The notes beneath the pieces are model-generated. The model was not told the DNA's origin. It worked only from the letters and a program-made list of their open reading frames with translations, and ran no database searches. From positions 1-34,467 of the forward strand of contig ONQC01000019.1 in the NCBI GenBank assembly GCA_900319855.1: a DNA stretch of 34,467 bases, written 5' to 3'. This document shows, one piece after another, positions 11,146-26,937 of this stretch (the first letter of the stretch is position 1; each line of letters starts with the position of its first letter). Both the position numbers and the translations under genes were made by a program. The stretch comes from an uncultured Bacteroidales bacterium (GTDB lineage: Bacteria; Bacteroidota; Bacteroidia; Bacteroidales; UBA932).

Positions 11146-11178
11146 AAAAGGCCTTCGTCAAATTGACGAAGGCCTTTT
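11146..11178. terminator. Bidirectional rho-independent terminator
   Basis: A perfect 16-bp inverted repeat (11146-11161 with 11163-11178, one central base) has an A-tract on the left and a T-tract on the right, so it can terminate transcripts in both directions. It sits between the convergent esterase genes ending at 11108 and 11228, exactly where a shared terminator is expected. Confidence 0.88.
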
Positions 11179-16053: not shown

Positions 16054-16104
16054 AAAAAGATAAATCCAAGGACGCGATTTTGCTGTCCTTGGATTTATCT
16101 TTTT
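16054..16104 (+). terminator. Rho-independent terminator of the second esterase gene
   Basis: A perfect 20-bp stem (16054-16073 with 16085-16104) encloses an 11-base loop. The right arm ends in a T-tract and the left arm begins with an A-tract. It starts 31 bases after the stop codon. An additional 10-bp inverted pair (16024-16033 with 16124-16133) encloses the whole hairpin. Confidence 0.88.
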
Positions 16105-24830: not shown

Positions 24831-26048
24831 ATGCACAAACTTCTGACCCTTCTGGCCTGCTGTCTGGGACTCGCCGGCAGTTTGGCCGCGCAGGACAAGA
24901 CCCTCCGTCTCGACTACATCTTTTCCGGAACCGACAAAACCACTGAGATTTCACTCGCCCAGATGAAATCCCTCGACGGCTGGTACGGCCGCTGCGTCAA
25001 CAGGGACCGTCTCCAACTGGCCGGGAATGGTCAGATTACCGTCCGTGATGCCCAGGACGGCCAGATCCTGTATACCAACTCCTTCTCCACCCTTTTCCAG
25101 GAATGGCAGAACAGTGAAGAGGCCACCAAAGTCCGCAAATCCTTCGAGAATGTCTTCCTGGTACCCATGCCGGAAAAGCCTGCCGAAATCACGGTGGAAC
25201 TCTTTGACAGCCACCGCCGTCCTTCCGCCAGCATCCGGCATACCGTAGACCCGGCCGACATCCTGGTCCGTCCCGTCGGCTTGCATCCGACCCCGCACCG
25301 CATCCTCCATCAGGCTGGAGACAGCCGCGAGAAGATCGACATCGCCATCGTGGCGGAAGGATATACCGCAGAAGAGGCAGAACTCTTCTATCGCGACGCC
25401 CGGACGGCCATGGAAAGCATCTGGAGCCATGAGCCGTTCAAGAGCATGCAGGACCGGTTCAACATCGTTGCCGTTGCCCCCGCTTCCAACGAGAGCGGCG
25501 TCAGCATCCCGCACAACCACGACTGGAAAGACACGGCCCTCGGTTCGCATTTCGATACTTTCTACTCAGACCGCTATCTCACGACTCTCAACATCTTCCG
25601 ACTCCACGATGTCCTCGCCGGCATCCCGTACGAGCACATCATCATCCTGGCCAATACCGACAACTACGGCGGCGGAGGCATCTTCAACTCCTACGTCCTG
25701 ACGGCCGCCCACAACCGTTTCGCCCTCCCGGTGGTCGTCCATGAATTCGGCCACAGTTTCGGCGGCCTGGCTGACGAGTACTACTATGATGACCAGTACG
25801 AAGAATCCTACCACGCCGATGCCGAGCCATGGGAGCCGAACATCACGACCCTGTTCGACTTCGACAGCAAATGGAAAGGCATGATGGGGAAAAACGGCGT
25901 CGGCCTGCACGAAGGCGGCGGTTACCAGTCCAAGGGCGTTTTCCGCCCGTGTGACGACTGCCGGATGAAAACCAACCAGTACCCGACCTTCTGTCCCGTC
26001 TGCGAACAAGCCATCCGGGACATCATCAACTTCTATACAGTCGAATAA
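24831..26048 (+). CDS. Secreted M64-family (IgA peptidase-like) zinc metallopeptidase
   Basis: This 405-residue protein has a signal peptide (cut near GSLAAQ). An N-terminal beta-rich M64 accessory region (about 25-130) precedes the peptidase domain, which begins at IDIAIVAEGYTAEEAELFY near residue 170. The zinc site is His304-Glu-Phe-Gly-His308 (VVHEFGHSFGGLADEY), and the GGLADEY continuation is typical of family M64, named after an IgA-cleaving enzyme of Clostridium ramosum. Four cysteines near the end (FRPCDDCRM and FCPVCEQA) may form disulfides or bind a metal. It is the second gene of a pair with a HAD lipoprotein phosphatase. Cleavage of host immunoglobulin is a family-level possibility, not shown here. 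The gene ends at the multi-branched repeat at 26055. Confidence 0.9.
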   Translation: MHKLLTLLACCLGLAGSLAAQDKTLRLDYIFSGTDKTTEISLAQMKSLDGWYGRCVNRDRLQLAGNGQITVRDAQDGQILYTNSFSTLFQEWQNSEEATKVRKSFENVFLVPMPEKPAEITVELFDSHRRPSASIRHTVDPADILVRPVGLHPTPHRILHQAGDSREKIDIAIVAEGYTAEEAELFYRDARTAMESIWSHEPFKSMQDRFNIVAVAPASNESGVSIPHNHDWKDTALGSHFDTFYSDRYLTTLNIFRLHDVLAGIPYEHIIILANTDNYGGGGIFNSYVLTAAHNRFALPVVVHEFGHSFGGLADEYYYDDQYEESYHADAEPWEPNITTLFDFDSKWKGMMGKNGVGLHEGGGYQSKGVFRPCDDCRMKTNQYPTFCPVCEQAIRDIINFYTVE

Positions 26049-26054
26049 ACTTTG

Positions 26055-26155
26055 GAAACCGAAGAGGCTTCTCTCTCGAGACGACATTGGCTCCCGAAAA
26101 GGGAGGGGACCCGCTTGCGGGGAGGATCGTCGGAGAGAGAAGCCTCTTCGGTTTC
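26055..26155. repeat. Multi-branched inverted-repeat element between convergent genes
   Basis: A perfect 23-bp inverted repeat (26055-26077 with 26133-26155) closes a 55-base interior. Inside, GACGA/TCGTC (26080-26084 with 26127-26131) extends the stem, then two hairpins stand side by side: CTCCC-GAAAA-GGGAG (26091-26105) and CCCGC-TT-GCGGG (26110-26121). It begins seven bases after the M64 stop and ends five bases before the DeoR stop. The outer arms may act as a two-way terminator, although no good T-tract follows. The interior is unlike a normal terminator loop and could be a REP- or MITE-like insertion or a structured RNA. Confidence 0.8.
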
Positions 26156-26160
26156 AGCAA

Positions 26161-26937
26161 CTAGCTGACTTTTACGATAGTAATTTCGATGCCCAGTTCC
26201 TGCAGGGCGTCAAAATACTCCTGTGGAATCTTGTCATCCGTGATGATCTGGTCGATACGGGAGCAGTCACAGATCTTGCTGAAACCCTTCTTGCCGAACT
26301 TGGAACTGTCCACCAGCAGGACCGTCTTCTTGGCGGCATCCATCATCTTCCGATCCCGGCTGGCCTCCACGATGCTGGACGTCGTCACCCCGAAAGACAG
26401 GTCGATGGCATCAGCGCCCATGAACAACAGGTCGCAACTGAAAAAAGACAGCATCTGTTCAGTAAAACTGCCGACGGTCGAAACCGACTTTTCACGCACC
26501 TGGCCGCCGAGCTGGACCACCTCGATCCCTTTGCTTTGGGAAAGCATGGAAGCCGCGGAGACAGAGGCTGAAATCACCGTAATATTCTTCAGGTCAGCCA
26601 ATTCCTTGGCCGTATACAGAATCGTAGTACCTGCCGTCAACAGGACGGAATCATGCTCATGGACCAAGGCGGCGGCCGCTTTTCCGATCGCCCGTTTTTC
26701 CAGTACGGCCTGGCCCTCGCCCGCATGCAGCGGCAGATTGCCCAGGTAAGGGGTAATCATGACCGCACGGCCATGGCTGCGGTACAACAGTTTCTGCTCC
26801 TCCAGCAAGGTCAAGTCCTTGCGGATGGTCACCTCGGAGACATCCAGCCGCTCTGCCAGGGCCGCGACGGAGACGCTGCCCTGCAGCTGCAGGATATCCA
26901 GGATCGCCTGGTGACGGGCACTCAGTTCTTCCAACAT
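26161..26937 (-). CDS. DeoR/GlpR-family transcriptional regulator
   Basis: This 258-residue protein has an N-terminal winged HTH at about residues 6-60 (RHQAILDILQLQGSVSVAAL, then LDVSEVTIRKDLTLLEEQ). The DeoR sensor domain covers about 75-235 (KRAIGKAAAALV, LLTAGTTILYTA, MGADAIDLSFGVTTSS, LLVDSSKFGKKGF). Proteins of this family usually repress sugar, polyol or nucleoside catabolic genes and are relieved by a phosphorylated sugar bound in the sensor domain. It is the last gene of the minus-strand operon, three bases after the metallophosphoesterase gene. A role in controlling that operon, or genes for products of nucleotide hydrolysis, is therefore plausible but inferred. Length is normal. 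Confidence 0.93.
   Translation of the reverse strand: MLEELSARHQAILDILQLQGSVSVAALAERLDVSEVTIRKDLTLLEEQKLLYRSHGRAVMITPYLGNLPLHAGEGQAVLEKRAIGKAAAALVHEHDSVLLTAGTTILYTAKELADLKNITVISASVSAASMLSQSKGIEVVQLGGQVREKSVSTVGSFTEQMLSFFSCDLLFMGADAIDLSFGVTTSSIVEASRDRKMMDAAKKTVLLVDSSKFGKKGFSKICDCSRIDQIITDDKIPQEYFDALQELGIEITIVKVS

Follow-up and report, generated by a model that had tools for sequence, protein, structure and literature searches.

What is a perfect 23-bp inverted repeat with an intricately folded interior doing in the short space between two convergent genes? The question arises at positions 26055–26155 of the window, a 34,467-nt stretch of DNA from an uncultured Bacteroidales bacterium (contig ONQC01000019.1). 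We conclude that the feature is probably a copy of a clade-specific, non-coding palindromic mobile element of ~90–110 bp, whose arms would be held complementary and whose core would be flipped by template switching, and which sits here in the position of a terminator. Across its copies the element is an asymmetric conserved core of two small hairpins centred in a long inverted repeat; the core is conserved, the arms diverge freely yet stay complementary, and the core is inverted at many matched sites.

A long hairpin between two convergent genes

The left outer arm (26055–26077, 23 nt of locus-specific sequence) is complementary to the right outer arm (26133–26155, 23 nt) at 23/23 positions, so that the coordinates and letters given in a preliminary description, a 23-bp outer repeat enclosing 55 bases, are confirmed. 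Its 5-bp inner stem and two GC-rich hairpins were likewise recovered in the fold: GACGA (26080–26084) pairs with TCGTC (26127–26131) around a conserved core (CATTGG ... GGA), 42 nt long here (26085–26126). Within the core, on the evidence of fold and core alignment, lie hairpin 1 (26091–26105, CTCCC-GAAAA-GGGAG), conserved in stem and loop, and hairpin 2 (26110–26121, CCCG-CTTG-CGGG), whose apex is variable with paired changes. All these features are given on the forward strand. The whole structure occupies the 112-nt spacer between a gene for an IgA peptidase M64-like protein on the left (24831–26048, forward strand; Pfam PF09471 and PF16217) and a gene for a DeoR-family transcription regulator on the right (26161–26937, reverse strand; PF00455 and PF08220), which are indeed convergent, as had been described.

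Folded as RNA, the forward strand of the hairpin reaches a minimum free energy of −66.0 kcal/mol (z −8.2; 0/200 shuffles equal it) and the reverse strand −64.4 kcal/mol (z −8.3, again equalled by no shuffle). It is the longest among the listed perfect inverted repeats of the window. Together with 386 kb of the same genome (420,564 nt in all), the window holds 53 hairpins with a stem of at least 12 bp and at most one mismatch; the core is present in all seven of the longest stems (22–29 bp), and the longest core-free stem measures 20 bp. The preliminary description had set the feature apart from other terminators of the window with plain short loops. Those loops measure 11 nt at 16054–16104 and 1 nt at 11146–11178, but the stems there are long and perfect too, at 20 bp and 16 bp.

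A family with a fixed core and free but paired arms

The hairpin belongs to a dispersed family. A covariance model built on 17 cores finds nine copies in its own genome, one of them interrupted, and the exact core pattern finds seven. At genus level, 146/400 genomes have matches at E ≤ 0.01, 71 of these at E ≤ 1e-10 (a count by hand), with up to 14 copies per genome; the weakest matches are probably chance or belong to a related core, core-B, and in one genome (G060) two weak core matches fall on core-B places. Stricter filters were applied at the higher ranks: across the family, 36/199 genomes from 7/25 genera match at E ≤ 1e-6, and in an order-wide sample 4/393 genomes match at E ≤ 1e-5, every one of them from the same family. 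A pattern scan of named genomes yielded at least 112 stretches with the core; the 112 listed records are labelled Bacteroidales, Bacteroidetes, Bacteroidia, Bacteroidaceae/Rikenellaceae or as genera placed in Bacteroidales. The matches listed include the Bacteroidales genera Candidatus Cryptobacteroides, Coprenecus and Cacconaster, and one complete genome, that of Bacteroidales bacterium CF.

Two departures from the standard core were seen. At L036/L009 (G000 contig C24, ~25340–25473), the loop of hairpin 1 is interrupted by ~80 nt with more hairpins. A third core type (CCCGTGACC... or CCCGTGGCC...) with inverted arms occurs at L077:1890, L179 and L190.

Conservation is confined to the centre of the element. 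Among 147 copies, a set that includes a few of another core type (the second of L077, L179 plus and L190 minus), identity is at least 0.9 at 27/36 compared core positions, whereas beyond about the fifth base from the core on the left and the ninth on the right the arms show a pairwise identity of 0.25–0.32 per position, near chance. Core conservation is partly built in, because it was through the core, by pattern and by model, that the copies were found, but the randomness of the arms is not. The two arms of a copy nonetheless match each other: their median pairing score is 23, against 6 for arms swapped between copies, and it lies above the 95th percentile of swapped pairs in 140/147 copies, with 7/147 not above the control. 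This test, like that for self-palindromic arms, leaves out copies less than 70 nt from a locus end and 20 long stretches, which avoids repeats. The idea that each arm is itself a small self-palindromic terminator was rejected as a general rule, with a mean z of −0.32 and p < 0.05 for 12.6% of 103 arms.

Paired changes extend into the interior. In the alignment of 17 cores, both sides have changed in 4/5 pairs of the inner stem and 2/5 pairs of hairpin 2; hairpin 1 scarcely varies and therefore gives no covariation support. The covariation that the preliminary description had suggested looking for thus appears in two of the three interior stems, the remaining one being too invariant to contribute. 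Compensatory change was one of two findings on which that description had staked its idea of a small palindromic mobile element, the other being further copies in this or related genomes; both were found, as the nine own-genome copies and the paired changes in the inner stem and hairpin 2, and together with dispersal as a palindromic unit (see below) they bear the idea out.

Copies between convergent genes

Genomic context was tabulated for 146 of the 147 copies, leaving out L009 with its interrupted core. Of 90 intergenic copies, 59 lie between convergent genes, 28 between codirectional and 3 between divergent ones, by a crude gene calling that files the window copy as codirectional although its true genes are convergent; 49 copies lie inside some frame, a class that includes spurious frames, and 7 lie at locus edges. 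Many copies between convergent genes, which had been proposed as a check on the preliminary description, are thus found. Relative to element-free gaps of the same loci, the convergent preference has an odds ratio of 9.4 (approximate, as some gaps hold two copies), and convergent copies often lie 50–70 nt from both stop codons.

At the 3' foot, the T fraction is 0.40 in 55 convergent copies versus 0.15 in 14 in-gene copies. In the window copy no more than a short T-run follows the right arm, and a terminator scan, whose 8-nt loop limit excludes this hairpin, finds nothing at the element. The window copy is thus a putative terminator, judged by its position and stem.

Placement directly past stop codons would also suit a structured RNA or regulatory 3' element, such as a protein-binding terminator or an mRNA-end signal, that is kept by selection and is not mobile. 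The core loops are almost invariant though the adjoining spacer DNA of the same genomes is hard to align (by eye), and the paired variation in the inner stem and hairpin 2 points the same way. We nevertheless hold such a function to be distinctly unlikely. Among codirectional copies neither strand is favoured (13 sense, 15 antisense), and the excess of G-U pairs over the whole arm fades to a non-significant 21 vs 12 (p 0.16) outside the 12 innermost positions; a strand-specific RNA function was rejected on these two grounds. Near the core the G-U bias is 23 vs 4 (p 0.0003), but it rests there on a junction that recurs among copies. No Rfam 15 family fits: at the gathering thresholds the window has 0 matches, and a scan at E ≤ 10 gave four, all of chance level. 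Copies inside genes, inverted cores and a patchy distribution, taken up below, weigh against a fixed RNA as well.

Copies in frame inside genes

Some copies sit within the genes of conserved proteins and leave the reading frame open, among them genes for a MiaA-type tRNA transferase, GH92, TrmB-like and SpoU-like methyltransferases and a UppP-type protein. Such positions inside conserved protein domains speak against a regulatory 3' RNA. The MiaA gene gives the clearest view of such an insertion. We fetched 30 MiaA loci from the genus, of which 22 have the motif that was used and 8 do not. The insertion place spans 29–38 residues in 16 loci, holds other inserts (52–77 residues) in four, and has 65 residues with the element in two, the starting locus in G023 and one in G063. 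Compared with 29-residue relatives, these two proteins carry 36 extra residues with the whole palindrome inside, and their cores have opposite orientations. Since the extra residues hold the whole palindrome, its arms arrived with the insertion or arose there, and no pre-existing terminator was involved.

In-gene palindromes take other forms too. L244, in the MiaA gene of another genome, has a tandem pair at this insertion place, both copies being in one frame. In TrmB, the loop that precedes the final conserved motif is a hot spot where varied palindromic insertions occur in frame (L324–L330, L332, L333, L336 and L074), and the TrmB of L340 has yet another in-frame insertion, in which GGACCTGGTCC palindromes are repeated.

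In-gene copies have less perfect arms than convergent copies, with a median longest perfect run of 10 versus 21 (p 6e-5). The in-gene set comprises 16 copies at 14 loci; six of the loci are from G166, the second copy of L077 is not genic, and L053 is a frame without a Pfam match. It follows from this difference that mutation alone does not keep arms perfect. Selection may therefore add to template switching in keeping arms paired, with the reservation that few in-gene copies were available and that one genome contributes heavily to them.

Movement, inversion and sites without the core

Arms are related within genomes. Their mean likeness is 9.1 for 111 pairs within genomes versus 5.1 for 7757 pairs between genomes, and the highest of 500 label permutations reaches 6.0; some genomes bear two labels (G128 and CALZOR, for example), an error that counts against the difference observed. 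Recent spread is visible in G858, a member of the family with 18 copies, where a unit of ~93 bp that includes both arms is ~95–100% identical at 10 sampled places (L398–L407, three of them at contig ends) with flanks of several kinds. By eye, these flanks show no obvious target-site duplication. A symmetrical substitution on both arms occurs in L404, L405 and L407, perhaps representing only two places because they end in identical 125-nt contig ends, and one-sided changes occur in the recent copies L400, L401, L403 and L406. At L398, L400, L401, L402, L404, L405 and L415 the 93-bp unit sits in longer composite repeats of ~100–300 bp. Such a burst, in an otherwise patchy distribution, is hard to square with an RNA that stays in place.

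The core also changes direction. Its orientation is opposite in 15/24 matched locus pairs between genomes, a count made by hand on pairs that overlap and that exclude same-locus pairs as well as L076/L176, L080/L081, L242/L244 and L038/L177 (one genome). The clearest flip is L191/L242, with shared flanks, nearly identical arms and an inverted core. Assembly error is a caveat for flips, the genomes used being mostly metagenome drafts, although a typical short read is longer than the entire element. Frequent inversion is a further point against a structured RNA read from one strand. At L054/L203, L086/L181 and L039/L046 the arms at matched sites are unrelated, so some shared positions may be independent insertions.

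A close relative, G295, shows what can stand at such a site in place of the element. At the window's own site it has a plain terminator and no core, with 44 nt between matched flanks (86 and 82% identical) versus 118 in the window, and two further own-genome sites (L006 and L008) are plain terminators in G295 as well. From these plain terminators it follows that the element replaced, or grew from, ordinary terminators. At the window site the G295 terminator resembles the arms weakly (p 0.04 left, 0.12 right); at L006 the likeness, AAACAG..AACCC.CCGG, is stronger (p 0.0025 left, 0.083 right); at L008 there is none (p 0.65 and 0.29).

These resemblances bear on the possibility that the core alone is mobile or recruited and lands in the loops of existing terminators or palindromes, the arms being host sequence. 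We regard this as unlikely. The left arm of L006 and, less so, the window site speak for it, and so do the long perfect stems found on this genome's plain terminators. However, L008 shows no likeness, the arms of G858 were copied with the core, arms are related within genomes, the MiaA insertion holds the whole palindrome, and core-bearing stems exceed every plain stem in the 420-kb sample. Empty sites with the outer arms only, which the preliminary description had suggested looking for, did not turn up among the sites examined; at three sites G295 has a plain terminator whose stem is different or only partly similar. Its picture of a terminator whose loop was filled therefore fails as a general account, the arms having been inserted or copied with the core elsewhere, but it may apply at the window site.

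Search for a mobilizing enzyme

Neither a transposase nor a mechanism of insertion nor a duplicated target emerged from the analyses of copies and flanks. One 4-kb stretch of G013 has three copies around a DUF2971 gene. The idea that clustered copies flank a transposase was rejected, none being present in the part of the frames searched near the clusters of G013, G364 and G128, and no parent element of MITE type was found among frames near clustered copies.

A sister family, core-B, has three hairpins, and the motif CCTCCC-hairpin-GGG.CCCCTCCCTYTT is common to it and to the core when the latter is reverse-complemented. Core-B occurs in 74/151 genomes, with up to 27 copies per genome and zero matches for a reversed control pattern, and its arms are palindromic and locus-specific at 34/34 sites examined (L324–L333, L336 and L352–L379).

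One candidate would be a REP-associated tyrosine transposase (RAYT) acting on a REP-type element. Y1_Tnp-like genes are present in 17/20 genomes with the core, and G045 and G347 each have one at a distance of ~2.5 kb from the core. They are equally frequent, 17/20, in genomes without the core, a comparison that is confounded because 13/20 of these 'empty' genomes carry core-B; when either core is counted, the gene is found in 30/33 genomes with a core versus 4/7 with neither (Fisher p 0.055). Against RAYT, the core-bearing genomes G128, G213 and G013 have no Y1_Tnp-like gene, the window's genome has five but none closer than 30 kb to a copy that shares its contig, and most Y1_Tnp matches are weak. 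The fixed tetranucleotide tag that REP elements have at their stem foot is also absent, because the outer arms are at chance identity (0.25–0.32 in the 147 copies). Mobilization by a RAYT appears very improbable to us.

Relation to known palindromic elements

In behaviour the element is closest to Rickettsia palindromic elements (RPE) and REP elements, but it is defined by a fixed core in free arms. RPE are described as short palindromic repeats that lie in frame within many unrelated protein genes (PMC10969869). Our family likewise occurs in frame in MiaA, TrmB-like, SpoU-type and other genes, a likeness of behaviour drawn from descriptions; such insertion is seen in a minority of copies, and the window copy is not among them. 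Unlike RPE, it conserves mainly its central core and leaves the arms free, its intergenic copies are mostly convergent and its hosts are Bacteroidales. REP and BIME elements, in the account taken from PMC3733652, are small palindromes that chiefly follow genes, in gaps of convergent or unidirectional pairs; the gene-downstream, convergent placement is shared, whereas our family is without a fixed GTAG or CGTC-type tag and measures ~90–110 bp rather than 20–40 bp.

Other classes resemble the element in part. MITEs have ends that their copies share and that serve as transposase sites. The inverted repeats of our family, by contrast, differ among copies except within recent bursts. Together with MITEs, the elements known as ERIC, RUP and SPRITE are like ours in being short non-coding repeats with inverted repeats, some of them terminator-like, as SPRITE is in its description in PMC10969869. 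The element recalls bidirectional intrinsic terminators in lying after both convergent stop codons, with a long stem and, on average, A-rich and T-rich feet; it differs in its 42–57 nt of structured, conserved loop content and in stems longer than those of its own genome's plain terminators. With template-switch hairpins and spacer inversions it shares homogenized arms and an inverted spacer, but the inverted spacers or loops in the cases considered from the two published studies are a few bases long, and our family flips a conserved piece of ~42 bases (PMC8604942, PMC8794818). The literature that we consulted on intergenic palindromic elements of Bacteroidales describes no such element, only related but different ones, and other print may exist; the family is apparently an undescribed, family-restricted variant of small palindromic mobile elements.

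Discussion

Paired change in the arms and inversion of the core are the outcome that template switching predicts. One study reports that inverted repeats which exchange template strands come to have equal arms and an inverted spacer (PMC8604942); another reports that the process can generate and maintain perfect RNA stems, the loop being inverted on rare occasions (PMC8794818). For the mobile palindrome that we favour, switching between the arms during replication would renew their pairing, and the same process would invert the core. A stable hairpin would presumably also be favoured by selection wherever the element works as a bidirectional transcription terminator, and the window copy may have replaced, or developed from, an ordinary terminator. 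Spread to new sites is not explained by template switching.

A more radical possibility, which we judge quite unlikely, is that the core is a selfish palindrome builder: its hairpins would stall replication, and template switching would then copy host DNA into an inverted second arm. Two observations hint at this. The left outer arm of L006 matches the relative's flank better than the right arm does, and, by eye against the TrmB of relatives, an arm of L074 seems to hold inverted host codons. If true, the core would make its own stem from any landing site, and terminators and occasional in-frame protein insertions would result.

More than 100 hairpins from related bacteria, alike at the centre but with stems that are in effect random, amount to a natural experiment in which the origin and upkeep of perfect stems, by selection for pairing or by template switching, could be tested, for example by comparing intergenic with in-gene copies. 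The core, in turn, could be used as a bait to find whatever moves or reads the element. Overall, we see here a short palindrome that would be spreading through a gut lineage both as terminator-like DNA and as in-frame insertions in proteins.
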